This document shows, piece by piece, positions 1,632 to 29,932 of a DNA stretch of 40,253 bases; the first letter of the stretch is position 1, and each line of letters opens with the position of its first letter. Where the stretch lies: the IMG/VR virus record IMGVR_UViG_3300028392_000130, positions 1-40,253 of that record. One strand, 5' to 3'. The notes below the pieces were generated by a model. It had not been told where the DNA came from. It made no database searches and was given only the letters and a program-made list of their open reading frames with translations. The stretch comes from a virus. A program made the position numbers and the translations under genes.

Positions 1632-1637
1632 TGAGAG

Positions 1638-1802
1638 CTACTCCGAAACTGTTGGGGATTGTTCTTCCGTCTGCGCCGTCAAGACATAATCGCCCTGCCC
1701 GCAGATATTGCATTTAGTCATTACTTGCTGATCTTCAGGGTTGCGTATTTCAATATAGAAATGGTTGCAACAATCTGAACTGTATTCGTATTTTATAGCC
1801 AT
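1638..1802 (-). CDS. 54-residue zinc-ribbon-like mini-protein
   Basis: ATG at 1802, preceded by a good AAGGAGAAA ribosome binding site, and TAG at 1638. The protein reads MAIKYEYSSDCCNHFYIEI... with CC at residues 11-12 and CNIC at 31-34, enough for one zinc site, and an acidic Thr/Glu tail. It fills the gap between two fibre genes in the same direction. Function unknown. Confidence 0.7.
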   Translation of the reverse strand: MAIKYEYSSDCCNHFYIEIRNPEDQQVMTKCNICGQGDYVLTAQTEEQSPTVSE

Positions 1803-1811
1803 AGTTTCTCC

Positions 1812-2633: not shown

Positions 2634-2643
2634 AATTTACTCC

Positions 2644-3531: not shown

Positions 3532-3540
3532 AGTTTACTC

Positions 3541-4482: not shown

Positions 4483-4844
4483 TAGGAAATCCTGTTTACA
4501 TAACCTGAAATTGTAACTACTGAGGCAGTTGCGGCAAATGCGCGAGTTGTTGTCGCGTTTGTGCCATCGCCTGTTAGCGGAAGTCCAGCAACAATTAGAA
4601 CATCGCCTGATTGTGGCGCAAGAGTAATTGGCTTGGCGTTTTGAACCGAGCCAGTACCGCCAAATTGAACTGTAAGCAAGACAGGAGATGTTGAAGTGTT
4701 ATTGGCATATAGCCAAATCTCGTCAATAACTGATGATGAAGTTCCTGTTGCGTGGATAGTTGTACCAGTTGAGGCAGTTTGGACAACAGTTATTGGTTGC
4801 CCTTGTGATGACGCTGAAAGTAATACCTTTGTATATGTTGCCAT
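4482..4844 (-). CDS. Small beta-rich virion accessory protein
   Basis: 120 residues, MATYTKVLLSASSQGQPITVVQTASTGTTIHATGTSSSVIDEIWLYANNTSTSPVLL... The layout T-K-V-L-L-S-x-S-x-x-G-x-P-I-x-V, a GTTIH box and a W-L-Y-x-x-N strand resembles small phage decoration or fibre-tip proteins that bind the virion surface. It sits between the collagen-like fibre and the glycine-rich paralogues. The role is inferred from composition and place only. Confidence 0.75.
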   Translation of the reverse strand: MATYTKVLLSASSQGQPITVVQTASTGTTIHATGTSSSVIDEIWLYANNTSTSPVLLTVQFGGTGSVQNAKPITLAPQSGDVLIVAGLPLTGDGTNATTTRAFAATASVVTISGYVNRIS

Positions 4845-4852
4845 TTATATTC

Positions 4853-6205
4853 CTATCCGAATACTTGCATTGAAATTACGGCTTGGTCTGTATCGTAAAC
4901 TGCATTTGTTCCATTTGTACCATTAGTTCCGTTAGTACCGTTGGTTCCATTTGTTCCTGCTGCACCACGCGGAATTGTAAAATCAAAAATTGCCGCGCCA
5001 GAAGTTCCTGAGTTTGTAACTGTCGCCGAAGTTCCTGCTGCACCTGTTGTGGTAGTTCCAACTGTAATAGTTGCTGCTGTTCCATTGGTACCATTAGTAC
5101 CTGCAGCACCAGTTGCACCTGTAGCACCAGTTGCTCCACGTGGAATTGTAAAATCAAAGATTGCGGCACTTGATGTACCAGAGTTAGTTACACTAGCAGA
5201 TGTACCCGCAGCACCAGTAGTAGTACTGCCCGCAGTTATAGTTGCAGCAGTACCATCAATGCCATTAGTGCCATTAGTGCCGTTGGTGCCTCTTGGAATG
5301 GTAAAATCAAATACGGCAGCACTAGAAGTTCCGCTATTGCTTACTGTTGCGCTGGTTCCCGCTGCGCCTGTTGTTGTAGTTCCAGCAGCGATTGTTGCGG
5401 CTGCTCCATTTGTGCCATTAGTTCCATTAGTGCCTGCAGCACCCGTAGCCCCTGTGGCTCCAGTGGATCCTGTGGGACCCGTAGCACCTGTATCGCCCTT
5501 TGGTAAGACTAAGTTAAGTATCTGTGTAGGTGTTGTTCCAGTGATAGTTGCACTTGCAGATACACCACCAGTAACAGTTCCAATTGAAAGAACGTTACCA
5601 GGCCCAGTATTACCTGTACTTCCAGTATCACCTTTGGGTCCCGTAAATCCAGTATCACCCTTAGTTCCCTGAATGCCTTGAGTTCCTTGTGGTCCAGTAG
5701 GGCCAGTGGGACCAGTATTTCCTTGAATTCCCTGTGGTCCAGTAGCACCAGTAGCGCCGGTAGCGCCAGTAGCACCAGTTGCTCCTGTGGCACCTACGGG
5801 AATTGTAAAGTTAAATACAGCAGCACTAGTTGTGCCTGAGTTACTTACAGATGCAGAAGATCCAGCAGCACCAGTTGTTGTGGAGCCAACTGATATAGTT
5901 GCTGCTGATCCAGTATCACCTTTAGGTAAAGTTAAATTTAAAGTTTGTGTTGGGGCTGTTCCAGTAATTGTTGCTGCTGCACTTGAACCACTAGCAACTG
6001 TTCCAACTGTTAATGTATTGGCTGGTCCTGTCGCTCCAGTATCGCCTTTAATACCCTGGGGACCTTGATCATTTGCTACTACAACTGTTGTATCTGGAAC
6101 AGAAATTGGTTCAACGATAACATCAATAGCATCTGTTGATGGACTAACATTTACAGATATATCGCTAGTTGCTGCTTGTTGAACAATTACAACAGTTTCA
6201 CTCAT
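4853..6205 (-). CDS. Collagen-like tail fibre protein
   Basis: 450 residues. After a beta-rich N-terminus (about 1-50) come Gly-X-Y collagen tracts ([33 protein letters not shown]) alternating with two kinds of globular module. One, ending [12 protein letters not shown] or [12 protein letters not shown], appears twice. The other ([33 protein letters not shown]) appears four times. Collagen tracts in phage fibres trimerise the shaft. The repeats at DNA level invite recombination and length change. It overlaps the upstream gene by four bases (ATGA). Confidence 0.9.
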
Positions 6206-6543
6206 GAAGTCACCGATGCTGTTACTACAAACTTACCCTCAAGCAATCTTGTAACAACAGTGCCAGAGTTAAGGATAAAATCATATACATATTGTCCAGC
6301 ATCAATCGCTGCAGTAGTTGCTGCACTTAAAGTAACTGCAACGGTTCCAGCAGTACCACCTAAAACAATTTTTCCATTGGCATTGGTTGCAGATACTGTA
6401 GTTGTTGTAGATCCAATAAATGGTCGAATAGTCATTGTGGCGGTATAGCCTGTAAGATTCCAAGCAGTATCGCTTGTTTTAATAGTAAAATTAAAGGTAA
6501 AAGTTGCTCCTTGTTCACATACTAAATTATGTTTAGCACTCAT
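6202..6543 (-). CDS. Beta-sandwich tail/fibre accessory protein
   Basis: 113 residues. It reads [41 protein letters not shown]..., continues with an [19 protein letters not shown] block, and ends with YVYDF...RLLEGKFVV. This Q-G-A-T-F ... W-N-L-T-G-Y-T-A ... R-L-L-E-G pattern is common in small phage proteins next to fibres (BppU N-terminal or Ig-like type). A role in attaching or decorating the fibre is plausible. It is coupled on both sides: ATGA to the collagen-like gene and a one-base overlap with the upstream stop. Confidence 0.7.
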
Positions 6544-6812
6544 TACATATTTACCCTTCTAAGTGCTTCGGCTGCCCCTAAACCGACAGTACCAGCAATA
6601 GCATTACATGCGCCTTGTAGATCTTGCCATTTACCAATAGGTAAATTTGCATAGATATTACAAGCACCAGTAGCAGCAAGTCCAGATGTACCGGCAAGTT
6701 TATTTGCTGCGCCATCATCATCTAACCATTGTGTCTTTGGTGGTAATGTTCCACCGAAGGCAAGACGATTTAACTCTTCTACAAGAGTGCTACCTGGTCT
6801 ACCTGTTGCCAT
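6543..6812 (-). CDS. Small structural-cluster protein, unknown
   Basis: 89 residues. It contains LVEELNRLAFGGTLPP, WLDDDGAANKLAGTSG and GAAEALRRVNM. The middle part recurs internally (NKLAGTSGLAATGACN and NAIAGTVGLGAAEA), so the protein is a short two-fold repeat, and each copy is preceded by a W. It lies between a glycosyltransferase and the fibre accessory gene. No motif of known function. Confidence 0.65.
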   Translation of the reverse strand: MATGRPGSTLVEELNRLAFGGTLPPKTQWLDDDGAANKLAGTSGLAATGACNIYANLPIGKWQDLQGACNAIAGTVGLGAAEALRRVNM

Positions 6813-6818
6813 TGATTG

Positions 6819-7538
6819 CTACTTTCTATGATGTTTTGGTAATATAAGATTTGATTTTTTTTCTTCACCAGCAAAAAATGCTGCATAATAATGTTCATCA
6901 AATGAGAATCGTTTCATATGAGGAACAGTTGCTCCTGTATGGCAGTACAATGAAACTTCGGCGGTATCACATAGGGCAAAGAAGAAGATATCTTCACCTA
7001 TAAATTTAGTGCCTCTTCCCATTTCCATAAACATTTGACCATCTGGTGCTACGGCTTTAACTTTTTCAACTACACTACGATGCATTAAGATAAATCCAAA
7101 TCCCGCTGCATCTACTTTAATAAGTTGATTCTTTGGTAGTGGATGCATTCTAGTTAATCCAAAAGATCCATCACCTTTATTAGTAAAACTAAAAACTGTT
7201 GGCATAGGAATCATTAAAGGTTCTTCTGGGTTATCTGTTGTAAAATAAACACCAGTTACTAGTGGGCGTTCTACTGCATCTTTATTATCCCAAAGTAACT
7301 TAAATTTTTCTGGACTAATTACAACATCTGAGTCTACCCACAATAGCCAATCAGACTTAGATTTTTCATACCAATATTCAATTACTGTTTGCCTTTGTCT
7401 GGCAATTTGATTGCCTTGACTTCGCAAAGTAGAAGTAAAATTTATTCCAGACTTTAACATTACATCTGTTACGCCTTGCATAAACTTTCCATCAACCATG
7501 CCATTATCACACCAAGCGATAGATACTGTCTCTTGCAT
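6819..7538 (-). CDS. Family A-type glycosyltransferase
   Basis: 239 residues from the ATG at 7538; a GTG at 7547 is possible, but the site GGTGGGGA suits the ATG. Near the N-terminus GNQIARQRQ is followed by WLLWVDSDVVI, giving the metal- and nucleotide-sugar-binding D-x-D at residues 69-71. Further on are DAAGFGFILMHRSVV and GEDIFFF, the usual acceptor-side acidic loop. Length fits a single GT-A domain. Placed in the structural operon, it may glycosylate capsid or fibre proteins; target unknown. Confidence 0.8.
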   Translation of the reverse strand: MQETVSIAWCDNGMVDGKFMQGVTDVMLKSGINFTSTLRSQGNQIARQRQTVIEYWYEKSKSDWLLWVDSDVVISPEKFKLLWDNKDAVERPLVTGVYFTTDNPEEPLMIPMPTVFSFTNKGDGSFGLTRMHPLPKNQLIKVDAAGFGFILMHRSVVEKVKAVAPDGQMFMEMGRGTKFIGEDIFFFALCDTAEVSLYCHTGATVPHMKRFSFDEHYYAAFFAGEEKKSNLILPKHHRK

Positions 7539-7552
7539 TGTCCCCACCTTTT

Positions 7553-7840
7553 CTATTTCTTTTTATTTCTAGCAGATATTGCTGCTGCCTTTTTCTTGGC
7601 ATCAGCCTTTGAACTAGCACCCCAAGCATTTAAAGACAATAGCAACCGTGTAGGTTCGCCATTAGGTTTACGCTCAGGTCCTGGCATGCTACCCATGCGG
7701 GCTAGGAAAGATGCCCTTCTAGGGTTGTCTCCAGCCTTTACAGGGGCTTTTAGAGTGCCACCCTTATAGGATGCCCTACCCTTAGCATTCAAGCCTCCCT
7801 TGGGGTTCTTGCCTTCTTTACGTGTCCATGCTGCTGTCAT
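7553..7840 (-). CDS. Lysine-rich small protein (DUF6321-like)
   Basis: 95 residues. The start is MTAAWTRKEGKNPKGGLNAKGR, then FLARMGSMPGPERKPNGEPTR, then a basic tail (KKKAAA...RNKKK). This pattern W-x-R-K-E-G-K-N-P-x-G-G-L-N-x-K-G-R ... M-P-G-P ... K-P-N-G-E-P-T-R is shared by a widespread phage family of unknown function that I associate with DUF6321. The many Lys/Arg residues suggest nucleic acid contact. First of seven consecutive small genes leading back to the capsid gene. Confidence 0.75.
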   Translation of the reverse strand: MTAAWTRKEGKNPKGGLNAKGRASYKGGTLKAPVKAGDNPRRASFLARMGSMPGPERKPNGEPTRLLLSLNAWGASSKADAKKKAAAISARNKKK

Positions 7841-7852
7841 GATTGTCCCTAC

Positions 7853-8017
7853 TTACATCTGCTTTGAGTTATATGCCTTGTCCATTGAATTTGTTGGTTT
7901 CTTGACATAAGCCTGTGCGGGACCTGGCTTTGAACCTGGCTTATGAAATGGTGAAATTGAAGAATGATCTTTCGCATTATTGCGAGAATTAAGATTAGTA
8001 ATTGTTACTTTTGCCAT
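7853..8017 (-). CDS. 54-residue basic protein, unknown
   Basis: ATG at 8017 overlapping nothing and TAA at 7853. It reads MAKVTITNLNSRNNAKDHSS... with PFHKPGSKPGPAQAY and ends MDKAYNSKQM. It is polar and rich in Lys/Ser/Pro with no hydrophobic core, so probably extended or disordered. The KAYNS motif near the end is also present in the 8891-9199 protein. Part of the run of small genes between the glycosyltransferase and the capsid gene. Function unknown. Confidence 0.65.
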   Translation of the reverse strand: MAKVTITNLNSRNNAKDHSSISPFHKPGSKPGPAQAYVKKPTNSMDKAYNSKQM

Positions 8018-8158
8018 TTATATTCCTTTGCCTGCTCTAGTGTCTTTGGCTGGTCTGTTAACTACAGGACCAGTTTTCTTTTTAGGTTGCTTGGCTACAA
8101 TGCCCATCTTTTCAAGATTGACTTTGATGGCCTTACCTTTAGGTTTATTAACTTTCAT
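8018..8158 (-). CDS. 46-residue strongly basic protein, unknown
   Basis: Starts at ATG 8158, overlapping the upstream stop as ATGA, and ends in TAA directly before the next start. Of 46 residues about a quarter are Lys or Arg (MKVNKPKGKAIKVNL, QPKKKTGPVVNRPAKD). Likely a small nucleic-acid or head-binding polypeptide, but that is only composition. Tight spacing and coupling support it as a real gene. Confidence 0.65.
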   Translation of the reverse strand: MKVNKPKGKAIKVNLEKMGIVAKQPKKKTGPVVNRPAKDTRAGKGI

Positions 8159-8454
8159 ATCTTGTATTTTGGGGCTGAGGCTTTAGGTTTATTAACACCA
8201 TATTGACCTTGACCAATTGTTCCTAGTGGGCCAGGTGAAGCACTTGGCTTATTAACAGCATTTTGGAAACGTGTATCACCATATAAGCGACGAACGCCTT
8301 CTGCAAAAGCCTTTGCTGTTGAATCTTGTTTGGCAGCCGAGTTTGCGCCCTTAACACTATTAAGAGCAGCAGTCATTCCCATTTTTTTAATTTGATCTAT
8401 TGTGCCTTGAGATACTTTTGTTTTTAAATCCCATTTGCTTTTATCAATTGCCAT
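8155..8454 (-). CDS. Small basic protein, unknown
   Basis: 99 residues. It begins MAIDKSKWDLKTKVSQGTIDQIKKMG, a short amphipathic helix region, then AAKQDSTAKAFAEGVRRLYGDTRFQ, and ends with a Gly/Pro/Ser-rich basic tail. The segment with the VNKP repeat (AVNKPSASPGP and GVNKPKASAP) also resembles the start of the next small gene (MKVNKPKGKA). Overlaps by one base with its upstream neighbour. No domain recognised. Confidence 0.65.
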   Translation of the reverse strand: MAIDKSKWDLKTKVSQGTIDQIKKMGMTAALNSVKGANSAAKQDSTAKAFAEGVRRLYGDTRFQNAVNKPSASPGPLGTIGQGQYGVNKPKASAPKYKI

Positions 8455-8729
8455 TATTTCTTGCCTTTCTTAGTAGTTTTAATTTGATTTCCTGTTTTAT
8501 CATCATAACGGCGACCTTGTGTAAGAGCACCAATCATTTGACCAAATTGTGAATCTTGGTTTTGGCGAGAAGCATTTGCTTGACCTCGGTAAAACTCTCG
8601 ACCTTTGCCACCTTGAGCCATATCATTTGGTGGATATGTGCTACCTTTGTAAGAATTTTCTGAAGTTTTATCCATAGCCTTTTTTAAATCTTTGGCTTCC
8701 TTCATCAAATTTTCTAGATAACTTGCCAT
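8454..8729 (-). CDS. Small polar protein, unknown
   Basis: 91 residues. The N-terminal helix MASYLENLMKEAKDLKKAMD is followed by a low-complexity Gly/Gln/Asn/Arg stretch (GGKGREFYRGQANASRQNQD), then FGQMIGALTQGRRYDD and a Lys tail. No membrane segment. Its start directly follows the upstream stop. Belongs to the basic mini-gene run; possibly virion-associated. Confidence 0.65.
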   Translation of the reverse strand: MASYLENLMKEAKDLKKAMDKTSENSYKGSTYPPNDMAQGGKGREFYRGQANASRQNQDSQFGQMIGALTQGRRYDDKTGNQIKTTKKGKK

Positions 8730-8891
8730 TTACTTCTTCTTGCCCATCTTCTTTACCATAGACTTTTTAGCAGATGATTTAATTACATCTTTGACATTAT
8801 TCTTCTTTTCGAATGCTGCCATCTTCTTACCTTCGCTTTTTTCATGAGCCTTCATTGCGCTCTTTGATGCGTATGTTTCTACTTTAGCCAT
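8730..8891 (-). CDS. 53-residue lysine-rich protein, unknown
   Basis: ATG at 8891, sharing one base with the upstream stop (TAATG); stop TAA at 8730. Seventeen lysines in 53 residues (MAKVETYASKSAMKAHEKSE ... AKKSMVKKMGKKK) make it one of the most basic products in the window. It predicts a single amphipathic helix. Coupled spacing argues it is translated. It could neutralise DNA charge, which is inference. Confidence 0.65.
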   Translation of the reverse strand: MAKVETYASKSAMKAHEKSEGKKMAAFEKKNNVKDVIKSSAKKSMVKKMGKKK

Positions 8892-9199
8892 TATATTTGC
8901 CCGATCTCTTTAAGTACTGCTGCGGATTTTTTATTTATATCTTTTGCTTTAGGCATAGTCTCAGAATTATAGGCTTTGCCTAAAGTCTCTGAGGCTTTGT
9001 ATGCTTCCTGAATATGCCGCATACTGGTTCCTGCTGGTTGCATTCCCTGAGATCTTGCGTCCCTGTAGGCTTGCAATTCTGCTGTCCATTTTTTATCTGG
9101 GATATCTCTTGTGGCATCCCCTGTATTCATTTGTAAACCAGATGCTTTACAACCAAAGCAATTATCTTGGTATTCTGGGTGATACTCCCAATGTTTCAT
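8891..9199 (-). CDS. Small protein with CxxC motif next to the capsid gene, unknown
   Basis: 102 residues, MKHWEYHPEYQDNCFGCKASGL... The N-terminus carries CFGC at 14-17 with two nearby His (H3, H7), enough for a zinc knuckle. The remainder is helical with IPDKKWTAELQAYRDARSQGM and YKASETLGKAYNSE. The W-E-Y-H-P-E-x-x-x-x-C-F-G-C-K opening looks like small actinophage proteins near the head genes, whose role I do not know. Confidence 0.7.
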   Translation of the reverse strand: MKHWEYHPEYQDNCFGCKASGLQMNTGDATRDIPDKKWTAELQAYRDARSQGMQPAGTSMRHIQEAYKASETLGKAYNSETMPKAKDINKKSAAVLKEIGQI

Positions 9200-9206
9200 A
9201 TGCCCC

Positions 9207-9476
9207 CTATTGCAACTTAAAGTTTGCTTCTGTTACCCCAACCCCACCTGCTATGAGTTCGGCCTTTATAGTATCATCTACGGTATGGTTATACCCACCC
9301 CTATAAACTGCTGTATAAGCCAAAAGATCTTCATCTACCGGGTTTCTTATTTGAGAATAAGTTGATCCACTTTTTACTATAGTAAGACCTTTATTCTGTT
9401 TTCTAAAATAAAATAAACGATGATCACCAATTGGACCTTCAGATACTGTAGGTGTAACAAATGTATAAAATGCCAT
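9207..9476 (-). CDS. Small protein following the capsid gene, possible head-tail or decoration protein
   Basis: 89 residues, MAFYTFVTPTVSEGPIGDHRLFYFRKQNKG... with strand-rich TIVKSGSTYSQIRNPVDED and a VYRGGYNHTV box. The opening Y-x-F-x-x-P-x-V-x-E-G-P and R-L-F-Y-F/W-R are typical of short proteins encoded right after actinophage capsid genes. Which virion position it takes is unknown. Spacing to the capsid gene is about 60 bases. Confidence 0.65.
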   Translation of the reverse strand: MAFYTFVTPTVSEGPIGDHRLFYFRKQNKGLTIVKSGSTYSQIRNPVDEDLLAYTAVYRGGYNHTVDDTIKAELIAGGVGVTEANFKLQ

Positions 9477-9539
9477 TGCTCTCCTTAATGAACTTAATGT
9501 AAACCAGGGATTTGCACCCCTGGCCTACTTTCAATCAAC

Positions 9540-10496
9540 TTAGGAAGCGATTGATGAACCTGATTCGATTCGGTATAGTGCTTCTTCGCGGTAGCGAGCA
9601 AAGCCAAGTACGCCGTACCAACCCATTGGGCGGTGACGCATCAACTTGTCAACTACTGGTCCGATTACTACATGTGGCTCTTCAGCAACTGCTTCTGCAA
9701 GTGCTTGCTGTCCAGCGATGATTGTACGGTAGTTACGTGCAGATGATGCACCGTCTGTAGCATTGTATAGACGTGGTGATTCAACAAAGAATGCACCTTC
9801 GTAGTTACCGATTTCTCCTGCCCAAATACGGTCTTGTGCAGCACCATATTGGTTAGGGAGCAACCAGCCTGCTGAGCCTGTTTCTGCACGAAGATCGTGT
9901 GAAACTTCTGGGTGGATACCAGCCCAGTATAGTGAGCCCTTGCGAGCAATAGACTTTCCAGCACGCAACTTTGCAACGGCCTTGCGGACGTTAGCAGAAG
10001 AAAGTGTTGCAGCAGCAGTAACTGTTGCTGTTGATGTTGCTGTAGAACCTGAGTAAATTACGTTAGTTCCACCGCGAAGTGCAGTCATTGCAACGCCGTC
10101 GATTGAATCGGCAAGGTTGAATGCGATGATGTTAGCAATTGCTGGATCTACGTCAGCAAGGCTGAATAGTTCCAAAGCACGTGTAACAAGTACTGAGTTA
10201 CCATACTCTGCAAGAGTGATGGTTACAGATGTTGGTGTAGATAATGCAACTGCATCTGGATCGACATCTTCTGTCAATGTTCCAGTTACTGCTGCTAGGT
10301 CAACGTACTTCTGTAGAACTACAGTTGATCCTGGGATTGCTTGCTTTGCTGGGCGCTTGTCTGCGACTGAACGAATAAGTGGTTCAGAACGGAGAGCGAA
10401 TTCCAAAAGACGATCATAAGCCTTTTGAACTAGACCAGCGCCACCAGAGGTACCTCCAAGAGAGGAAGAACCTGTTGTTGTGTAGACGTTTGCCAT
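9540..10496 (-). CDS. Major capsid protein (N4-gp56/HK97-fold type)
   Basis: 318 residues. An extended N-arm (SSLGGTSGGAGLVQKAYDRLLEFALR) is followed by RSVADKRPAKQAIPGSTVVLQKYVDL. Then come LTEDVDPDAVALSTPTSVTITLAEYGNSVLVT, LADSIDGVAMTALRGG, a P-domain with HPEVSHDLRAETG, and GWYGVLGFARYREEALYRIES at the end. Together these match the N4-gp56-like family of HK97-fold capsid subunits. It follows the scaffold gene and has a strong ribosome site (AAGGAGG) just before the start. It builds the shell around the DNA. The N-arm could be the target of a maturation protease. Confidence 0.9.
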   Translation of the reverse strand: MANVYTTTGSSSLGGTSGGAGLVQKAYDRLLEFALRSEPLIRSVADKRPAKQAIPGSTVVLQKYVDLAAVTGTLTEDVDPDAVALSTPTSVTITLAEYGNSVLVTRALELFSLADVDPAIANIIAFNLADSIDGVAMTALRGGTNVIYSGSTATSTATVTAAATLSSANVRKAVAKLRAGKSIARKGSLYWAGIHPEVSHDLRAETGSAGWLLPNQYGAAQDRIWAGEIGNYEGAFFVESPRLYNATDGASSARNYRTIIAGQQALAEAVAEEPHVVIGPVVDKLMRHRPMGWYGVLGFARYREEALYRIESGSSIAS

Positions 10497-23684: not shown

Positions 23685-23699
23685 GTATGAAATTCATAC
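23685..23699. promoter_or_regulatory. Palindromic site 1 (GTATGAAATTCATAC)
   Basis: First of ten exact copies of a 15-bp palindrome, 7-bp half-sites GTATGAA and TTCATAC around one central base. Preceded by CTAGGT, as at site 2. It lies 139 bases before the first plus-strand gene. Sites of this kind usually bind a dimeric repressor or activator; the protein is unknown. Confidence 0.75.
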
Positions 23700-23780
23700 G
23701 GCGAAAATAAATTGCGACACGTCTTGCTTTTGACCCCGACCTATGGGACAATTTTCTTGGTGGAATAAATTCCGCTAGGT

Positions 23781-23795
23781 GTATGAAATTCATAC
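23781..23795. promoter_or_regulatory. Palindromic site 2
   Basis: Exact GTATGAAATTCATAC, with the same upstream CTAGGT as site 1, making the pair a 96-bp spaced duplicate. It ends 28 bases before the ATG at 23824, so bound protein would overlap the start region of that gene. Confidence 0.75.
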
Positions 23796-23823
23796 ACTTC
23801 CCAAAATGAAATGAGAAAAAAAA

Positions 23824-24498
23824 ATGGCAACAACAACCGCTAAAAAATCTCCAAAGGTAATCCCCGCAAAGGCTCCAAAGATCAAGGTGGCAAAGATCAA
23901 AGCTTCTCCAGTAGTAATCGAAGCAGATCAAGAAATTGTTGATCTTTACTCTGGGCTAATAAATCAACAAGGTGAAATCCAGTTCATCATCGAACTGGCG
24001 CACCGCTTGGCTAGTGGCTCAACATCTGTCCGTATCATCCAAGCATCCATTGACCTAGCGTCGGAGATGGGAACCGCCCCTACGATCAAGAAAGGACACG
24101 CGCAATATATTTTGACCGCGTCCAAAATTCTCGACACGCAAGAGGGTGCCGATACTTGGCCAGTTGCCAAGTTACTTAAACTTGCGACCCGACTACAACG
24201 CCATGCGGGGGTCGAGAATATCGAAACCGCGTTACAAGTAACGGACAACATCTCGGAACTCAATGAAGCGGTGCCAGTAATAAACACCAAGAAGCGTGGC
24301 ACCAAAGGCACCAAGATTAAAGAAGTCGCAACCGCGCCAAAATTGCGGACAGTGGATGAAGTCTTGGCAGTAACTCTCGCGGGTCTGCTCTCGATCTCTA
24401 AAAATCCACGCGACTTAAAGTCTGCCGATCTAAAAACGCTAAAAGCAGTTGCCGATCTAGTGTTGGTAATCGTGGGTAATTCCGCACCTAAGAAATAA
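23824..24498 (+). CDS. 224-residue Lys/Ala-rich protein, first gene of the plus block; possible regulator
   Basis: The N-terminal about 32 residues are a basic, Pro/Lys/Ala-rich arm (MATTTAKKSPKVIPAKAPKI) of the kind that wraps DNA. The central part is helical (DLYSGLINQQGEIQFIIELAHRLASG, TIKKGHAQYILTASKIL, KLLKLATRLQRHAGVENI). The C-terminus has RTVDEVLAVTLAGLLSI and SADLKTLKAVADLVLVIVG. No known domain was recognised. The start has only a weak ribosome site after an A-rich leader. It has its own terminator and two palindromic sites directly upstream, so it is a candidate for the palindrome-binding protein or a gene under its control; neither is shown. Confidence 0.75.
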   Translation: MATTTAKKSPKVIPAKAPKIKVAKIKASPVVIEADQEIVDLYSGLINQQGEIQFIIELAHRLASGSTSVRIIQASIDLASEMGTAPTIKKGHAQYILTASKILDTQEGADTWPVAKLLKLATRLQRHAGVENIETALQVTDNISELNEAVPVINTKKRGTKGTKIKEVATAPKLRTVDEVLAVTLAGLLSISKNPRDLKSADLKTLKAVADLVLVIVGNSAPKK

Positions 24499-24513
24499 TC
24501 TCCACAAGAATAG

Positions 24514-24540
24514 CCCCCGCGAAAGCGGGGGTTATTTTTT
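24514..24540 (+). terminator. Strong rho-independent terminator
   Basis: Perfect stem CCCCCGC-GAAA-GCGGGGG (24514-24531) with a GNRA tetraloop, then TTATTTTTTT. It lies 15 bases after the stop of the 23824-24498 gene and separates it from the rest of the plus block, so the following genes need their own promoter. Confidence 0.92.
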
Positions 24541-24541
24541 T

Positions 24542-24842
24542 GCCTAAAAATTCCGCCGCATTATCCGCGCCCCGCACTCTGGGCCCCGCGCCCCGTATGA
24601 AATTCATACGCGCCGGACGCGCCAAAAGTTTGTGTTGGCACTCCTTTACTACGCGATTGGTTGGCAGAAAATTTGTGTTGGTTTGTGTTGGTTAGGCACT
24701 CCTTCACTACGCAATCGGACGCCACCGGCACGCGCAATAGTCCAAAAGATAATACGGCCAAAAGGTCGAACCGGCTTGCTTTAGGTATTCATATCGGGTA
24801 TTCTTAGGTTATCTAGTTGAGCCATGCCCGACAAGATATGGT
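24542..24842. repeat. Gene-free GC-rich segment with two long direct repeats
   Basis: 24553-24594 is strikingly C/G-rich compared with the surrounding DNA. Two imperfect repeats follow: GTTTGTGTTGG + GCACTCCTT.ACTACGCGATTGG (24628-24660), and TTTGTGTTGG, GTTTGTGTTGG, then GGCACTCCTTCACTACGC (24672-24718). The 11-mer GTTTGTGTTGG recurs at 29934-29944, after the terminator at the end of the plus block. Palindromic sites 3 and 4 flank this segment. An iteron-type origin or regulator array is conceivable; an open frame on the minus strand here has no ribosome site and is not called. Confidence 0.6.
24595..24609. promoter_or_regulatory. Palindromic site 3
   Basis: Exact GTATGAAATTCATAC inside the GC-rich gene-free segment, 55 bases after the terminator. 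It is the only copy not close to a start or stop codon, 270 bases before the next start, which leaves room for a promoter between. Confidence 0.7.
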
Positions 24843-24857
24843 GTATGAAATTCATAC
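24843..24857. promoter_or_regulatory. Palindromic site 4
   Basis: The symmetry extends to 19 bp here, GTGTATGAAATTCATACAC (24841-24859). It ends 22 bases before the ATG at 24880. The spacer holds the ribosome site GAAAGG, as at site 5. Confidence 0.75.
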
Positions 24858-24879
24858 ACTCTTAGCGAAAGGTTAAGTT

Positions 24880-25044
24880 ATGACTAACGCACAACTTCTC
24901 GCTCGCATAGAAGCGATAACCCAAGAGTACAAGCAAGCCCAACACTTGGAAGTTCTTGCCAATATCGAAGCAGAAAAGAAAATGAAAGAAGCCATCCGTA
25001 AGGCTGGCATAGAAGCAATCGAGAAGGCGAGGACTTTCGCATGA
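24880..25044 (+). CDS. 54-residue helical protein, unknown
   Basis: ATG at 24880 with GAAAGG upstream and TGA overlapping the next ATG (ATGA). The peptide is one long charged helix (MTNAQLLARIEAITQEYKQ ... EAIRKAGIEAIEKARTFA), likely a coiled coil that dimerises. Pairing with the acidic 62-residue neighbour suggests a two-protein unit. Function unknown. Confidence 0.7.
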   Translation: MTNAQLLARIEAITQEYKQAQHLEVLANIEAEKKMKEAIRKAGIEAIEKARTFA

Positions 25045-25229
25045 GCGATAGCGATTATACTTTCAGCGATGAAGAGTTATTAGCAATAGCCCATGAAATC
25101 TTCACTGATGAAGAATTAGCGGAGATTTTAGATGAAGAGGATTTACTAGGGGTAGATATATCCTTAGATGAACTCTATGATGAATTAAATGAGGAGGATG
25201 ACGAAGCATACTCAGATTGGGCTGAGTAA
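25041..25229 (+). CDS. Extremely acidic 62-residue protein, DNA-mimic candidate
   Basis: 26 of 62 residues are Asp or Glu, with no Lys or Arg (MSDSDYTFSDEELLAIAHEI ... DELNEEDDEAYSDWAE). Regularly spaced pairs of acidic residues on a probably helical chain resemble DNA-mimic phage proteins that block restriction or host DNA-binding proteins, such as T7 Ocr, though no sequence match is claimed. It is translated with the preceding helical protein. Function as an inhibitor is inference. Confidence 0.75.
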   Translation: MSDSDYTFSDEELLAIAHEIFTDEELAEILDEEDLLGVDISLDELYDELNEEDDEAYSDWAE

Positions 25230-25235
25230 TTCCGT

Positions 25236-25290
25236 CAGGTAGCCCGCGCTGGTGCGTGGTTCGTAGGTTCAATTCCTACGGCGGGTACTG
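25236..25290 (+). other. tRNA-like hairpin (T-arm and acceptor-like stem), not a complete tRNA
   Basis: CGTAGG-TTCAATT-CCTACG (25262-25280) is a faultless T-arm with the conserved TTCAA loop. GCCCGC (25242-25247) pairs with GCGGGT (25281-25286) as an acceptor-like stem directly flanking it, and CAGGTA/TACTG extends the pairing with two bulges. Only 14 bases lie between the stems, too short for D and anticodon arms, and no CCA is encoded. It could be a tRNA remnant, a tRNA mimic or an attachment-site core copied from a host tRNA 3' end, though no integrase gene is in the window. Confidence 0.5.
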
Positions 25291-25291
25291 T

Positions 25292-25306
25292 GTATGAAAT
25301 TCATAC
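25292..25306. promoter_or_regulatory. Palindromic site 5
   Basis: Extended 19-bp form GTGTATGAAATTCATACAC (25290-25308), touching the tRNA-like element. Ends 22 bases before the ATG at 25329, the same spacing as site 4, with AAAGGAG between. Confidence 0.75.
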
Positions 25307-25328
25307 ACTAGCAACGAAAGGAGATACC

Positions 25329-25529
25329 ATGAAGCCTACTTGTAGTAATTGCGGAGTATTCCTCACACATGAGGAAATCACAGAAGCAATTTATTTCGCA
25401 GTAGTAATAGCCGAATATGAAGGTAGTCCAGCATTTGGTACTTGTAATAAATGTATGGACTTTAACTACGCAATAGATAACGCCTTAGATCAAGGCCCAT
25501 CTCACCCTAAATATGATTGGACAGAATAA
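25329..25529 (+). CDS. 66-residue zinc-ribbon protein
   Basis: Start ATG 25329 after AAAGGAGATACC; an earlier in-frame ATG lies within palindromic site 5 and has no ribosome site. CSNC at residues 5-8 and CNKC at 41-44 form one likely zinc ribbon, with acidic/Asn-rich connecting helices (EEITEAIYFAVVIAEYEG). No enzyme motif. It opens a three-gene coupled set. Confidence 0.75.
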   Translation: MKPTCSNCGVFLTHEEITEAIYFAVVIAEYEGSPAFGTCNKCMDFNYAIDNALDQGPSHPKYDWTE

Positions 25530-25711
25530 TGAATATAGAATTTGGCTTTAGCGCATCAAGATATCTATTACACTTAACCATAAGCGTAGGCAGATACACC
25601 TTGTGGCTTAATATAGTTGCCACTAACTGGCGATCTATTAGTTACCAAAAGGATTTTAGGGATAGTCATATGGGATGTTTTTCTGTATTCACATTCGCAT
25701 TAACTAAGTAA
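25529..25711 (+). CDS. 60-residue protein, unknown
   Basis: The stop of the previous gene and this ATG share a base (TAATG), which fixes the start. The sequence MNIEFGFSASRYLLHLTISV... is strand-rich with aromatic residues and ends GCFSVFTFALTK. No motif recognised. Translational coupling is the main support. Confidence 0.65.
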   Translation: MNIEFGFSASRYLLHLTISVGRYTLWLNIVATNWRSISYQKDFRDSHMGCFSVFTFALTK

Positions 25712-25720
25712 GGAGATATC

Positions 25721-25891
25721 ATGATTACACTTGATCTAACTGATCGGCAGGTTGTGGTTATACGCCAAGCCTTACGCCTTCAAGAGGAGGCACACAAGCG
25801 TAATGGTTTCATTACCCTAGAAGCGGAAGCCTCTAGTTTAAGATCGCATATTGCTGACGCGGTAATTGACAATGCTAAAGCGGTAGTGTAA
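25721..25891 (+). CDS. 56-residue helical protein, unknown
   Basis: ATG at 25721 with TAAGGAG ten bases upstream. MITLDLTDRQVVVIRQALRL then QEEAHKRNG and RSHIADAVIDNAKAV: two amphipathic helices, with an opening that resembles small actinophage proteins of the form (L-T-x-x-Q-x-x-x-I-x-x-A-L-x-x). Likely dimeric. Function unknown. Confidence 0.7.
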   Translation: MITLDLTDRQVVVIRQALRLQEEAHKRNGFITLEAEASSLRSHIADAVIDNAKAVV

Positions 25892-25920
25892 TATAGTTCC
25901 TGTAATCAAGCAGTATCGCT

Positions 25921-25935
25921 GTATGAAATTCATAC
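25921..25935. promoter_or_regulatory. Palindromic site 6, before the amidoligase gene
   Basis: GTATGAAATTCATAC extended by matched C/G to a 19-bp palindrome CTGTATGAAATTCATACAG. Ends 24 bases before the ATG at 25960, with GAAGGGAAA in the spacer, as at sites 4 and 5. It would control the amidoligase and amidotransferase genes. Confidence 0.75.
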
Positions 25936-25959
25936 AGTATCTATCAGAAGGGAAACGAT

Positions 25960-27153
25960 ATGGAAACTGACGAAGTCCTTAACTGCGTAAGTTGCAATAA
26001 GGATGCAAGCCTAATAACTAGCGACGGCAACACTGTATGCCACGATTGTGTGCGTGTATGTGAGCGTTGCAATACGATAGGTTCAGAAAGTTGGGACTTT
26101 CGTACAGTAGATGACGCAATATGGTGCGAGCCATGTGCTGAGAGTTACTCTAACTACTGTGAAAGTTGTGAGGTGAACCACACTGGCGACAACTACTATG
26201 CTGAGGATCGTAGCGGTACATGGTGTGAGGATTGCTGGAATGATACTCTCACCTACTGTGAGGGTTGTAGTTGCTATTACTACAATCCTTGTGATTGTTA
26301 TGATGAGAATATTGATATTCATGACTACTCATATACACCCGATCTAGAGTTCCACTCTAATAATGATAACCCAACTAGCCCCGCAGATCATCTCTACTTT
26401 GGTATAGAGATCGAAGTCGAAGCCCCTAGAGGGGATTGGGGTATTCGCAAACAAGCAGCCGCATTTGCTACTGCTAACTTAGAAAGTTACGACCTAGCAT
26501 ACCTTAAGTCTGACGGCTCACTCGAGTGCGGATTTGAAATCGTTACTCACCCAATGACCCACGACTATTTCAAGAACTCTGCCGATAAGTATTGGGAAGT
26601 TCTTGAGCACCTGCGTAGCCATTACCGCATGCGGTCTTGGTCTGCTGGTACTACTGGCCTTCATATCCATATATCTAGGGCAGGATTTAACAATGGTGCT
26701 CACTCACACCGCTTCTTACAATTAGTCTACAACAATGAGGAATTCTATTCCAAGATCGCTGGCCGTACTTCAGGCCGTTGGGCTAAGTTCGATGATGTCC
26801 ACCAATGGGACAGCACCAAAGAGAAGTCTGTTAAATCATTCAAGCGTAAGTTAGCCCCTTATCGGGCCAATACTTCTGATCGGTACTCTGCCGTCAATAC
26901 TCTCAACCGCAATACATTTGAGATGAGAATATTCAGGAGTACCTTAAATGGAAATACAGTTAAGTCTGCGCTTGACTTGGCGCACGCCAGTGTCGAGTAC
27001 ACGCGCAGTCTTACTGTGAACCAAGTAGTCAATGGTGCGCTAGAGCGTATGAATTTCATACAGTTCATATACAACAATAGCGACACCTACTCGCACTTAA
27101 TATCCCGCATGGACAGATTGTTCATCGGAGCCAACAACCAAGATACAGAATAG
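25960..27153 (+). CDS. Cys-rich amidoligase (glutamate-cysteine-ligase-like, Amidoligase_2 type)
   Basis: 397 residues. The first about 115 form a chain of CxxC knuckles (C9/C12, C27/C30, C34/C37, C56/C59, C67/C70, C89/C92, C100/C103, and a CDC end). The ligase domain (about 145-330) has the family signatures: FGIEIEVEAPR with E150 and E152, KSDGSLECGFEIVTHP (183-198), GLHIHIS (233-239), RYSAVNTLNR and EMRIFRSTLN (321-330). Enzymes of this fold use ATP to join a carboxyl to an amine. It is followed after 10 bases by a class II glutamine amidotransferase, which could supply ammonia or a related amine. Palindromic site 6 is upstream, and site 7 lies inside the gene. Substrate unknown. Confidence 0.88.
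   Translation: METDEVLNCVSCNKDASLITSDGNTVCHDCVRVCERCNTIGSESWDFRTVDDAIWCEPCAESYSNYCESCEVNHTGDNYYAEDRSGTWCEDCWNDTLTYCEGCSCYYYNPCDCYDENIDIHDYSYTPDLEFHSNNDNPTSPADHLYFGIEIEVEAPRGDWGIRKQAAAFATANLESYDLAYLKSDGSLECGFEIVTHPMTHDYFKNSADKYWEVLEHLRSHYRMRSWSAGTTGLHIHISRAGFNNGAHSHRFLQLVYNNEEFYSKIAGRTSGRWAKFDDVHQWDSTKEKSVKSFKRKLAPYRANTSDRYSAVNTLNRNTFEMRIFRSTLNGNTVKSALDLAHASVEYTRSLTVNQVVNGALERMNFIQFIYNNSDTYSHLISRMDRLFIGANNQDTE
27047..27061. promoter_or_regulatory. Palindromic site 7, inverted, inside the amidoligase gene
   Basis: GTATGAATTTCATAC, the reverse complement of the usual orientation, within codons for RMNFIQ (363-368) of the amidoligase. Occurrence inside coding DNA shows the motif is kept for its DNA sequence, or arose by chance with unusual luck; such intragenic sites can act as roadblocks. 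Confidence 0.65.
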
Positions 27154-27163
27154 GAGATATACT

Positions 27164-28030
27164 ATGTGCTTACTCGCAGTATGTGAGCCAAACTCTACAC
27201 CCAAGCGTAAAGAACTTGAGTGTGCTTCATGTAATAACCCACACGGATTTGGGTATGCTATCATAGCAGATGGCGAGATCATTACTGGTCGCGGTATGTC
27301 TGCTAAGAAAATCGTATCCGAGTTCCTATCCCTTCGTAAGCAATACCCTAGTGGATACGCTATGTTCCATGCTAGATACGCTACGCATGGGGTTAAGAAT
27401 GAGGATAACTGCCATCCGTTTAAGGTAGGAGGGTCGACACAAACCTATCTAGCGCACAATGGTATTCTCGATGTCGAGATCCACGCAACGGATAAGCGTA
27501 GCGATACGCGTGTATTCGCTGAGGATGTGTTACCCGCCATGGGTGGCGTGGCCTCATTAGATAATGACAATGTGTGGAAGATCCTTAGCAAGTGGGCCAC
27601 TGGTAGCAAGATTGCTGTACTTACCTTAGACCCGAGTGCTAAAGATGTCTGCTATATCATCAACGAATCGTCAGGCCATTGGGATAATAATGGCATATGG
27701 TGGAGCAACTCTACCTACAAAGAGGATAGTTGGTCGCGCTATATCGGTATGCCTAGCGTAAAGAGCGATGATAGTGTATCTGTAATGGACGGCGAAACAG
27801 AATGTCCGGGCTGTGGTGCGTTCCTCTTAGAGGATAGTAATCCATACTATTGCGAATTCTGTATGACCTGCTATGATTGCTTCGGGATCTATGAGCAAGA
27901 TTGTATGTGCTATATGCCCGAGCGAGATGAGCATGCTCTCAAGGTAAGGAATGCTGGCAACTATCAGGGTTACTTTGACTTCGACAAAGAATACCAACAA
28001 GCCCACGAATACCACAACTACTACAAGTAA
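27164..28030 (+). CDS. Class II glutamine amidotransferase with a zinc-ribbon C-terminus
   Basis: 288 residues, starting MCLLAV: Cys2 becomes the N-terminal nucleophile. HGFGYAII (27-34), FHARYATHG with R71, the LAHNGIL loop with N99-G100, and SDT (113-115) match the Ntn glutaminase domain of the PurF/GlmS class. There is no phosphoribosyl or isomerase domain, so it is a free-standing glutaminase. The C-terminus (about 214-250) has ECPGCG, CEFCMTCYDC and CMC, a zinc-binding tail. It is expected to release ammonia from glutamine for a partner, most simply the amidoligase just upstream with which it shares the Cys-rich addition. Ribosome site AGGAGA. Confidence 0.88.
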   Translation: MCLLAVCEPNSTPKRKELECASCNNPHGFGYAIIADGEIITGRGMSAKKIVSEFLSLRKQYPSGYAMFHARYATHGVKNEDNCHPFKVGGSTQTYLAHNGILDVEIHATDKRSDTRVFAEDVLPAMGGVASLDNDNVWKILSKWATGSKIAVLTLDPSAKDVCYIINESSGHWDNNGIWWSNSTYKEDSWSRYIGMPSVKSDDSVSVMDGETECPGCGAFLLEDSNPYYCEFCMTCYDCFGIYEQDCMCYMPERDEHALKVRNAGNYQGYFDFDKEYQQAHEYHNYYK

Positions 28031-28039
28031 GGAGATGAC

Positions 28040-28228
28040 ATGTCGTTCAAGGAAAATATTGAATGGGATGAGCAGGGCGTTTATCTTAATTGGAATGCGA
28101 TAACTGAACTACGAGTTATGCTTAGAGATTATCTCCAAGCAGTAGGAGTACACAGCAATGTGTATGAAATTCATACAGAGAATAATGTAAGAGAAGTACT
28201 AAAAGGGTTAGGAGATCGAAGTGTCTAG
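28040..28228 (+). CDS. 62-residue protein, unknown
   Basis: ATG at 28040 with AAGGAGATGAC. It reads MSFKENIEWDEQGVYLNWNAITELRVMLRDYLQAVG... and contains palindromic site 8 encoding VYEIHTE. Its stop overlaps the next gene's GTG start. The site inside the frame forces a MYEIHT-like peptide. No motif known. Confidence 0.65.
   Translation: MSFKENIEWDEQGVYLNWNAITELRVMLRDYLQAVGVHSNVYEIHTENNVREVLKGLGDRSV
28162..28176. promoter_or_regulatory. Palindromic site 8, inside the 28040-28228 gene
   Basis: Exact GTATGAAATTCATAC within the coding frame, 59 bases before the GTG start of the next gene. A downstream operator for that gene or a roadblock is possible. Confidence 0.65.
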
Positions 28229-28484
28229 TGAAGTAACTATAAAAGAAGTAATGTCCAAGTATGATGTTCTGCTTAAGTTTACAGACTATCTAAGTTGGAC
28301 TAAGACCATACGCTTCATAGATCGAGAAAGAAAATCTTACAATGGCATCCTCCATTGGGATGCCAGCAATGGATATGCGTTAACGTTCCCTGCTGATGTG
28401 CCTAAAGATCTATTAGAGATGTCTACTAGGCCCGAGTTCGAATATGTGCTAGATTGTATTACGGAAGGGGATACTGGTGACTGA
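28221..28484 (+). CDS. 87-residue protein, unknown
   Basis: GTG start with GGAG nearby (GTTAGGAGATCGAA), overlapping the previous stop by eight bases. MSSEVTIKEVMSKYDVLLKFTDYLSWTKTIRFI ... VLDCITEGDTGD. It has a helical N-terminus, IRFIDRERKS basic patch and acidic end. No membrane segment. Coupled on both sides, so part of the operon. Confidence 0.65.
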   Translation: MSSEVTIKEVMSKYDVLLKFTDYLSWTKTIRFIDRERKSYNGILHWDASNGYALTFPADVPKDLLEMSTRPEFEYVLDCITEGDTGD

Positions 28485-28587
28485 GGAAGCCTGTAGCATG
28501 TGTGATGAAATCCATGATGAAGGAGAATGCGGGGTGGATAATCCTGATCCCGATTACCTGTACGATCTAATGAATGAGGTTGATTGA
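28477..28587 (+). CDS. 36-residue acidic Cys peptide, tentative
   Basis: A GTG at 28477 inside the end of the previous gene begins MTEEACSMCDEIHDEGECGV... with three Cys and many Asp/Glu, stopping at 28585-28587 directly before the next gene. GGAAGGGG precedes the start. Very short, with a rare start, so it may be only an untranslated stretch; a shorter reading from ATG 28498 is possible. Confidence 0.35.
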   Translation: MTEEACSMCDEIHDEGECGVDNPDPDYLYDLMNEVD

Positions 28588-28704
28588 TTGTCATTTATCA
28601 AACTATCGGTGGGCTTATTCTGCTTAGGAATACTAGGAGGGGCTAGCCCACCAACTTTACTACTACTACTACTAATAATATATATATGGGGGGTGTTAAT
28701 ATGA
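28588..28704 (+). CDS. 38-residue membrane peptide upstream of WhiB, tentative
   Basis: TTG start at 28588 immediately after a stop. The peptide MSFIKLSVGLFCLGILGG ... LLLLLLIIYIWGVLI has a membrane segment encoded partly by a TAC/TAA microsatellite (28655-28684). The stop TGA overlaps the WhiB start ATG (ATGA), and GGGGGGT inside it can serve WhiB. Alternatively this is just an untranslated leader; no clear ribosome site precedes the TTG. Confidence 0.35.
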   Translation: MSFIKLSVGLFCLGILGGASPPTLLLLLLIIYIWGVLI

Positions 28705-29087
28705 CGCGTGAAAGAGATGAATTCATAAGCGGTAAACGCAGAACGGAGGCATACATTGTTGGCGATTGTTCAGGCCATGAGAATCCTGATCTATGGTTTC
28801 CGGAAGGTATGGGGCCAGGTGGCAAGACAGATGAACAAATAAAAGAAAGAGCGAGAGAAGTTAATACTGCGCTGGCCATATGTAACTCCTGCTCAAAGAA
28901 AGATGAATGCTTAACCGAAGGCATGCGACCCGAGAATATTGTACATGGTATATGGGGTGGCATGCTTGCTGGTGAACGAATACTAAACGCTGGAATAAAC
29001 TATGGGGACTACAGCCAGTGGAACCCTCATACTCTAGCCTTAGATTTTCATAGGAGAGTATTACCATACTTAAGGAGTAGTGTATGA
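28701..29087 (+). CDS. WhiB-family Fe-S transcription regulator
   Basis: 128 residues. Four Cys as in the family (C23, C61, C64, C70; C-x2-C-x5-C) hold a 4Fe-4S cluster, followed by the conserved HGIWGGM turn (82-88). The start chosen, ATG 28701, overlaps the preceding TGA; GGGGGGT lies seven bases upstream. WhiB proteins are confined to actinobacteria and their phages and bind host sigma factor to change promoter choice, so this is a strong host indicator and a likely agent of host control. A tail of about 30 residues follows the turn. It overlaps the next gene by four bases. Confidence 0.92.
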   Translation: MTRERDEFISGKRRTEAYIVGDCSGHENPDLWFPEGMGPGGKTDEQIKERAREVNTALAICNSCSKKDECLTEGMRPENIVHGIWGGMLAGERILNAGINYGDYSQWNPHTLALDFHRRVLPYLRSSV

Positions 29088-29096
29088 AATTCATAC
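29082..29096. promoter_or_regulatory. Palindromic site 9, overlapping a stop and a start codon
   Basis: GTATGAAATTCATAC covers the WhiB stop TGA (29085-29087) and the ATG (29084-29086) of the next gene, encoding its MKFI. Bound protein would sit on the coupling junction. AAGGAG lies just upstream. Confidence 0.7.
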
Positions 29097-29473
29097 GGCC
29101 AGTATCATTTATAATGATAATATTGTTTATCATTGTAGGGGTTAATAAGATTGGCGATAGCGAAATTGACCACGCAAGAGTGTGGACTATAGATGATAGT
29201 AAGTCTTATGCTAGAGATAAGTTAGAAATATATACCGATAAACAATGGCAGTGTCTCAACAAGTTATGGACTGCCGAATCACACTGGAGAGAGAAGGCAT
29301 ACAATCGTGTAAAAGTTATGGGCAAACATGCTGGTGGCATACCACAGATATTAGATATGTCGCCTAAGTTAAATCCTACATCTCAAATAGATAGAGGCTT
29401 ATCTTATATTGAGTTCAGATACATTACGCCCTGTCGGGCATGGGAACACCACTTACGAAAGGGTTGGTACTAA
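29084..29473 (+). CDS. Exported lysozyme-like (APF C-terminal type) cell-wall protein
   Basis: 129 residues. A hydrophobic segment at about 5-20 (RPVSFIMIILFIIVGV) is a signal or membrane anchor. The domain (about 55-129) reads CLNKLWTAESHWREKAYN, AGGIPQIL, NPTSQIDRGLSYIEFRY, TPCRAWEHH and GWY. This is the pattern of actinobacterial aggregation-promoting-factor/transglycosylase-like domains (W-x-x-E-S-x-W; G-I-P-Q; Q-I-x-x-G-L-x-Y-I-x-x-R-Y; W-x-H-x...GWY), with E65 as the likely catalytic residue. Placed after WhiB rather than in the lysis cassette, it may remodel host wall or block superinfection. Overlaps the next gene start (TAATG). Confidence 0.82.
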   Translation: MKFIRPVSFIMIILFIIVGVNKIGDSEIDHARVWTIDDSKSYARDKLEIYTDKQWQCLNKLWTAESHWREKAYNRVKVMGKHAGGIPQILDMSPKLNPTSQIDRGLSYIEFRYITPCRAWEHHLRKGWY

Positions 29474-29709
29474 TGAGAAATGTTTTCAGGGTTGGCGGTA
29501 TCAACTCTAATACGCTTAAGCAAACCGCTATGGACTTACGTGGTAAGCCAATCACAGTATGTATATGCGGTTCTGAGGTATGGAACTTACAAGTTAAATG
29601 GGATGATGATGGGACTATAGGCATGTACTTCATGAACATGTGGTGTCCATTGTGTGATACTGTAGCAACCGCACCGATACCAAAGGACGCTCAAGATGCC
29701 GAACTATGA
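29473..29709 (+). CDS. 78-residue two-knuckle zinc protein, unknown
   Basis: ATG at 29473 sharing a base with the upstream stop. Contains CICG (position 29-32) and CPLC (60-63), spaced as a zinc ribbon, and strand-rich connecting sequence EVWNLQVKWDDDGTIG. One of many short CxxC proteins in this block. No further assignment. Confidence 0.65.
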   Translation: MRNVFRVGGINSNTLKQTAMDLRGKPITVCICGSEVWNLQVKWDDDGTIGMYFMNMWCPLCDTVATAPIPKDAQDAEL

Positions 29710-29872
29710 ATATAAATGTAGTGACTGCGGTACTTCGGAAGAGCACTACAGAACCGTAGAAAGTAGAGACAAGTTTCCTAATTGTCAATACTGTCAAAAA
29801 GAAATGACACGCGTATGGCAAGCCAACCCAGTTAAGTTCAACGGCACTGGGTTCTACTCAACAGGAGGATAA
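29696..29872 (+). CDS. FmdB-like zinc-ribbon protein
   Basis: ATG at 29696 within the end of the previous gene. 58 residues, beginning MPNYEYKCSDCGTSEEHYRT with CSDC (8-11) and CQYC (30-33), and ending FNGTGFYSTGG. MPxYEYxCxxCG and the closing F-x-G-x-G-F-Y-x-T match the FmdB putative regulatory family, found in bacteria and phages. Last gene of the plus block, ahead of site 10 and the terminator. Confidence 0.85.
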   Translation: MPNYEYKCSDCGTSEEHYRTVESRDKFPNCQYCQKEMTRVWQANPVKFNGTGFYSTGG

Positions 29873-29881
29873 AGAATAAGT

Positions 29882-29896
29882 GTATGAATTTCATAC
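29882..29896. promoter_or_regulatory. Palindromic site 10, inverted, against the terminator
   Basis: GTATGAATTTCATAC, the reverse orientation, three bases before the terminator stem at 29899. A site at the end of a transcript cannot control initiation there in the plus direction, hinting at a roadblock or structural role. Confidence 0.7.
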
Positions 29897-29898
29897 AG

Positions 29899-29932
29899 GG
29901 GCTGGCCAGCATAACGCTGGCTGGCCCTTTTT
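29899..29932 (+). terminator. Terminator closing the plus-strand block
   Basis: Twelve-pair stem GGGCTGGCCAGC/GCTGGCTGGCCC with two G-T wobbles around ATAAC (29899-29927), then TTTTT. It lies between the convergent FmdB-like gene and the sigma-like gene. No T run on the minus side. Confidence 0.9.

Follow-up and report, generated by a model that had tools for sequence, protein, structure and literature searches.

Introduction

The repressor of the temperate phage phiC31 recognizes conserved inverted repeats, which are dispersed as palindromic sites in the early region of this actinophage. The stoperators of L5 and the other cluster A phages, which are also temperate, are 13–14 bp long, have no dyad symmetry and are bound by a monomer (PMC6550527, PMC9283540). 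In cluster K, the SAS is asymmetric, overlaps the ribosome-binding site and has words that are nearly constant across the cluster, and the ESAS contains inverted repeats with SigA-like promoters (PMC3203893, PMC11373665). In plasmid RK2, KorB, a CTP-dependent clamp of the ParB family, uses operators, some of which are kilobases away from the promoters that are silenced (PMC11790492).

The window analyzed here, which is an entire virus record of 40,253 bases, carries ten copies of a palindrome within a block of plus-strand genes that includes the gene for a 224-residue Lys-rich protein (ORF224). From comparison with related phages, we consider it likely that these palindromes are the operators of the phage's own ORF224, changing together with it, and that the bound protein probably acts as a repressor or roadblock on the plus-strand block. 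The system resembles that of L5 and cluster A in having many near-identical short sites that are spread across the phage genome and located in promoters or in short gaps between genes, a phage-encoded candidate reader with its own autoregulatory site, a site that diverges with the reader, and a strand preference. It differs in that the sites are perfect palindromes of 14–19 bp, that ORF224 was unrelated in all searches and that no integrase or ParA was found. Thus, the likeness to stoperators drawn by the sequence-only reading is reasonable as a description of how the system may work, but as judged by symmetry, homology and temperate genes, it falls outside the cluster A stoperator family. Like the SAS and ESAS, the palindromes are actinophage repeats located just 5′ of the start codons of some genes, here with a peak at 10–29 nt for the sites that precede a start, whereas the SAS word GGGATAGGAGCCC is asymmetric and 13 bp long and the repeated words found here are palindromes of other sequence. 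Palindromic operators and a single global regulator, as proposed here, are shared with KorB, although ORF224 has no detectable ParB domain. The sites of phiC31 are similar in being dispersed and palindromic, but its repressor is not known to be related to ORF224.

Palindromic sites and genes of the plus-strand block

The pattern GTATGAA[A/T]TTCATAC occurred exactly ten times in the 40,253-bp record, always within 23685–29896, in agreement with the sequence-only reading, and the two copies that it had taken to be reversed are those with a T at the center (Table 1). The central base was the sole difference, the arms being identical in all ten copies. The earlier statement that the window holds no further copy was borne out even at up to three mismatches, with no other match in the record against 1.89 expected from dinucleotide shuffling, and the read-backwards control pattern gave no match in the record either. 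The spacing of sites 4, 5, and 6 from their start codons was reproduced, and the 19-bp symmetry reported for these three sites was also present at site 2. Some sites (7, 8, and 9) are intragenic or overlap a start codon.

The block is flanked by the leftward TerL operon, which starts at 23147, and by the convergent genes of a sigma-like factor and a phosphoesterase (30637 and 31365), and it contains ORF224, small ORFs, an amidoligase, a class II glutamine amidotransferase (GATase), a WhiB-like protein and a transglycosylase-like protein. A megablast search of the block against annotated phages gave no match. The ORF224 gene is probably monocistronic because it is followed by a terminator-like hairpin with a T-run; the hairpin was also detected in two further scans, one of which assigned it to the minus strand. 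Two 31-nt direct repeats that are 81% alike (TTGTGTTGGCACTCCTTTACTACGC...) are present between sites 3 and 4, at 24630–24660 and 24688–24718.

Table 1. Palindromic sites, genes and signals of the plus-strand block (window positions)
Feature	Position	Strand	Remarks
Site 1	23685..23699	.	GTATGAAATTCATAC; A center; ORF224 start 124 nt further
Site 2	23781..23795	.	A center; 19-bp symmetry; ORF224 start 28 nt further
ORF224	23824..24498	+	proposed palindrome-binding protein; all-helical core, residues 31–152 (window 23914–24279)
Terminator-like hairpin and T-run 3′ of ORF224	24513..24541	+	read from sequence
Site 3	24595..24609	.	A center
Site 4	24843..24857	.	A center; 19-bp symmetry; ends 22 nt ahead of ATG 24880
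Site 5	25292..25306	.	A center; 19-bp symmetry; ends 22 nt ahead of ATG 25329; tRNA-like RNA directly 5′
Sigma70-like promoter TTGACA-17-TAATAT	25866..25894	+	−10 box 39 nt ahead of the center of site 6
Site 6	25921..25935	.	A center; 19-bp symmetry; ends 24 nt ahead of amidoligase ATG 25960
Amidoligase_2-like protein	25960..27153	+	E 2.5e-7; gene downstream of site 6
Site 7	27047..27061	.	T center; within the end of the amidoligase ORF; GATase 102 nt further
Class II glutamine amidotransferase-like protein (GATase)	27164..28030	+	
Site 8	28162..28176	.	A center; within the 28040–28228 ORF (62 aa); 44 nt ahead of GTG 28221
WhiB-like protein	28686..29087	+	E 3.6e-8
Site 9	29082..29096	.	A center; includes ATG of the 129-aa transglycosylase-like ORF at 29084
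Site 10	29882..29896	.	T center; block end
Terminator	29897..29929	+	directly after site 10

Palindromes of related phages

Relatives were gathered from IMG/VR using ORF224, the amidoligase, TerL and GATase as queries. Six related contigs carried the same word as the window in 6–9 copies each, and more distant relatives had a different repeated palindrome at matching places of the same block, giving about 20 words with 3–10 copies per relative. The words fall into two classes, odd (7+1+7) and even with a TA center. The left arms of the odd words include GTATTAA, GTATGAT, GTCCGAT, GTAAGAT, GCCGTAT, ACTTTAT, ACTATAT, ATATTAT, GTCATAT, GTCTGAA, GTACGAA, and others, and the even words are TTCGGTTAACCGAA, TCCGTTTAAACGGA, TCGGGCTAGCCCGA, TCGGGATATCCCGA, GTCGGCTAGCCGAC, TTCGTGTACACGAA, and CGGTCATATGACCG. 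Relatives with 88–90% identical TerL used different words. An iterated profile (HMM) detected an ORF224 homologue in every locus reaching the block head, and ORF224 had diverged down to 30–38% identity, whereas GATase was still 63–81% identical.

Co-variation of the palindromes with ORF224

The distance between words was correlated with the distance between ORF224 proteins (r 0.78–0.80), and the correlation persisted in partial Mantel tests given each of six other proteins (r 0.67–0.80, p 0.0005). In the converse tests, given ORF224, the correlation was near zero for the amidoligase, GATase, WhiB, phosphoesterase, and lysozyme, and was 0.155 for the sigma-like factor. These results support the 224-residue Lys-rich protein, the first candidate named by the sequence-only reading, as the reader; once ORF224 is accounted for, WhiB does not co-vary with the words and the sigma-like factor does so only slightly.

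The words could also be predicted from the segment of ORF224 around His92. Among 11 loci without a previously detected repeat of a perfect palindrome, all had 7–9 copies, mostly imperfect, of the predicted word or one close to it. A further 19 loci were retrieved afterwards; 18 of them contained the word that was predicted, and exact copies of the other tested words were found in none of the 19. Taken together, the prediction and distance tests show that protein and word travel together, although this alone is no proof of contact, and relatedness contributes. The co-variation is partly shared descent, and a single recombining block could bring the protein and its sites jointly.

The presence of the palindromes was compared among 34 TerL relatives whose contigs cover 4 kb or more upstream in this region. 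A strong palindrome set was found in all three with ORF224 and in one (L206) of the 31 without it, nine of which retain the amidoligase and eight of those nine also GATase. The repeat of L206 is an unrelated 10-bp word, GTCTTAAGAC, with ten copies in 1429–9593, several of them directly before AGGAG ribosome-binding sites, and is apparently a second, different start-associated system without an ORF224 homologue. In the cultured phages E7 and F5, ORF224, GATase, the amidoligase, and a comparable palindrome set were all absent. Small basic proteins of ~87–107 aa occupy the place of ORF224 in L176, L165, L174, L187, and L196, which have GATase and the amidoligase but no ORF224.

Placement and symmetry of the sites

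Among 503 sites, 230 (46%) were located up to 70 nt before a ribosome-binding site and start codon, mostly at 10–29 nt, compared with 18.6% of random positions. The placement was also syntenic, a site being present 5′ of ORF224 in 47 of 52 loci, 3′ of ORF224 in 54 of 54, 5′ of the amidoligase in 61 of 64, and 5′ of GATase in 49 of 62. A promoter-like sequence was found 36–66 nt upstream on the block strand at 48 of 250 sites, compared with 3.7% at random, and on the other strand at 2 of 250. Since the promoter is upstream, the site would lie in the early transcribed region, which is consistent with a roadblock. The sites, their common placement, their co-variation with ORF224 and the success of the predictions are read directly from the sequences. 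The earlier proposal that the plus-strand block is marked by a set of dimer-type operators is supported.

The central base of the odd words on the block strand was A in 229 cases versus T in 43, and A was preferred in every odd word, an excess that is not accounted for by the symmetry of a dimer alone. Mismatches within the palindromes were concentrated at the center, and 29 of 49 were not G-U compatible; this clustering and the lack of compensation indicate DNA half-sites more than an RNA hairpin.

An RNA of ~57 nt resembling a tRNA was observed at 25234–25292 (+) of the window and at 47 other loci. It comprises a 6-bp acceptor-like stem, a T-arm-like hairpin (GGTTCGATTCC) and one tiny extra arm, with no D or anticodon arm, and lies 5′ of a palindrome, within 60 nt in 37 of 43 cases. 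Its covariation was strong, with pairing in 94.8% of cells, changes on both sides in 12 of 14 pairs and a score of 0.509 versus 0.245 when shuffled. ARAGORN found no tRNA and Rfam no credible match at this locus. The RNA model matched the cultured phage AprE7 (L298) at 2157–2216 (−) with an E of 6e-4, and because ORF224 is absent there, this RNA may predate the palindromes and their reader.

Family searches and predicted structure of ORF224

No credible family was found for ORF224 in Pfam, PHROGs, or the PDB sequences, and 47 homologues searched against Pfam and PHROGs gave scattered, weak, chance-like matches only, with no known repressor or recognized HTH family. Residues 31–152 were modeled confidently as an all-helical domain (pLDDT 95.8, pTM 0.89), and in the full model the variable segment lies at the N-terminal end of the helix of residues 90–105. 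Foldseek found no significant match of the full-length or core models to solved folds, the best match of the core being the ParB-parS structure 6t1f (TM 0.46, E 2.3), which is weak. Homology to ParB had been suggested by a GHA-like segment, but was not supported in a comparison with 20 ParB proteins, hhalign giving a probability of 3.6% with the ParB HTH.

Column scans for specificity residues were dominated by the odd/even difference when all classes were included. Within the even class, residues 90, 93, 94, and 96 were among the top nine, and within the odd class the top columns were outside helix 4. The assignment of DNA-contact residues to helix 4 is hypothetical because the scan favors this helix in the even class only. 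In addition, the word GCCGTAT is common to two divergent groups of ORF224 homologues, and CTATAT to several, despite different residues in helix 4. Overall, ORF224 would represent a new protein family, unrelated to known ones, that appears to work like a dispersed-operator phage repressor.

Proposed mechanism and alternatives

In the mechanism that we propose, an ORF224 homodimer would bind the palindromes via its all-helical domain of residues 31–152, with the helix around His92 probably near or at the DNA, and each phage lineage would have altered ORF224 and all its sites in concert. When bound in a leader 5′ of the ribosome-binding site or within a gene, ORF224 would most likely block RNA polymerase, either soon after initiation or during elongation, so that the plus-strand block (amidoligase, GATase, WhiB, and small ORFs) and the ORF224 gene itself would be held down or timed. 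We infer DNA binding, dimerization, repression, and timing by ORF224.

It is rather unlikely that ORF224 binds the sites as an activator instead, with the palindromes serving as promoter elements in transcription timed by the phage and the A-rich center of the odd class (xATAAT) doubling as a −10 box. The cores of the odd class often match TATAAT at five or more of six positions, A is favored at their center on the block strand, and transcription starting just 3′ of a site would give a short leader that fits the spacing of 10–29 nt. However, a −35 signal for such a core was no more frequent than the estimated chance, the even-class palindromes are placed alike without a −10-like core, and good promoters are found upstream of the sites instead. 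The odd-core −10 box was rejected for lack of a matching −35. That the palindromes are leader RNA hairpins for the control of translation, or ORF224 an RNA binder, would agree with sites 5′ of ribosome-binding sites and with the strand bias of the central base, but is very improbable given that the arms are identical in ten copies, that the one-sided mismatches are central and mostly uncompensated, and that some sites are intragenic or at the block end.

The weak Foldseek match to ParB-parS, the position of the ORF224 gene next to TerL and the use of scattered palindromes by KorB could point to partition or packaging sites, with ORF224 as a ParB-like or small-terminase-like DNA marker. This is hardly probable, however, as the ParB HTH profile comparison was negative, no CTP domain was seen in ORF224, ParA was absent from 23 contigs and the site positions follow gene starts. 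A host transcription factor, which the sequence-only reading had also listed, could in principle be shared within a probable host of the Nanopelagicales type, but it is exceedingly unlikely to read the palindromes, since close relatives by TerL use different words and the words track ORF224, not the remaining genome.

Host, lifestyle and implications

The TerL of the window is 80% identical to those of AprE7 and AprF5, which we matched by name to E7 and F5, two phages that were isolated on 'Ca. Planktophila' (PMC10202952), and this makes a related freshwater actinobacterium of the Nanopelagicales type the probable host. When most of the larger ORFs of the window were scanned against PHROGs, genes for replication, packaging, tail, and lysis were found, but no integrase. 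Matches to PF00589, PF00239 or PF13614 (tyrosine and serine recombinases and ParA) were absent from all 23 contigs of 38–42 kb, which may be incomplete, and a GATase search of genome contigs gave one fragment only and no prophage. If the contigs are near complete, these phages may have stoperator-like control without recognized lysogeny genes.

This study suggests a likely function for an uncharacterized gene family of abundant freshwater phages. The dozens of natural protein–operator pairs proposed here should make it possible to test how a regulator and its scattered operators change specificity jointly, and they raise the question of why orthogonal, immunity-like operators occur in phages without recognizable lysogeny genes. 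We put forward more tentatively, as a possibility at somewhat less than even chances, that ORF224 is the first member of a new family of proteins that bind DNA sequence-specifically in such phages, and that its target palindromes have turned over to about 20 different words at fixed places. If true, this would represent a readable protein-to-operator code that arose in nature through competition between phages infecting the same cell, and an orthogonal, immunity-like control without lysogeny.
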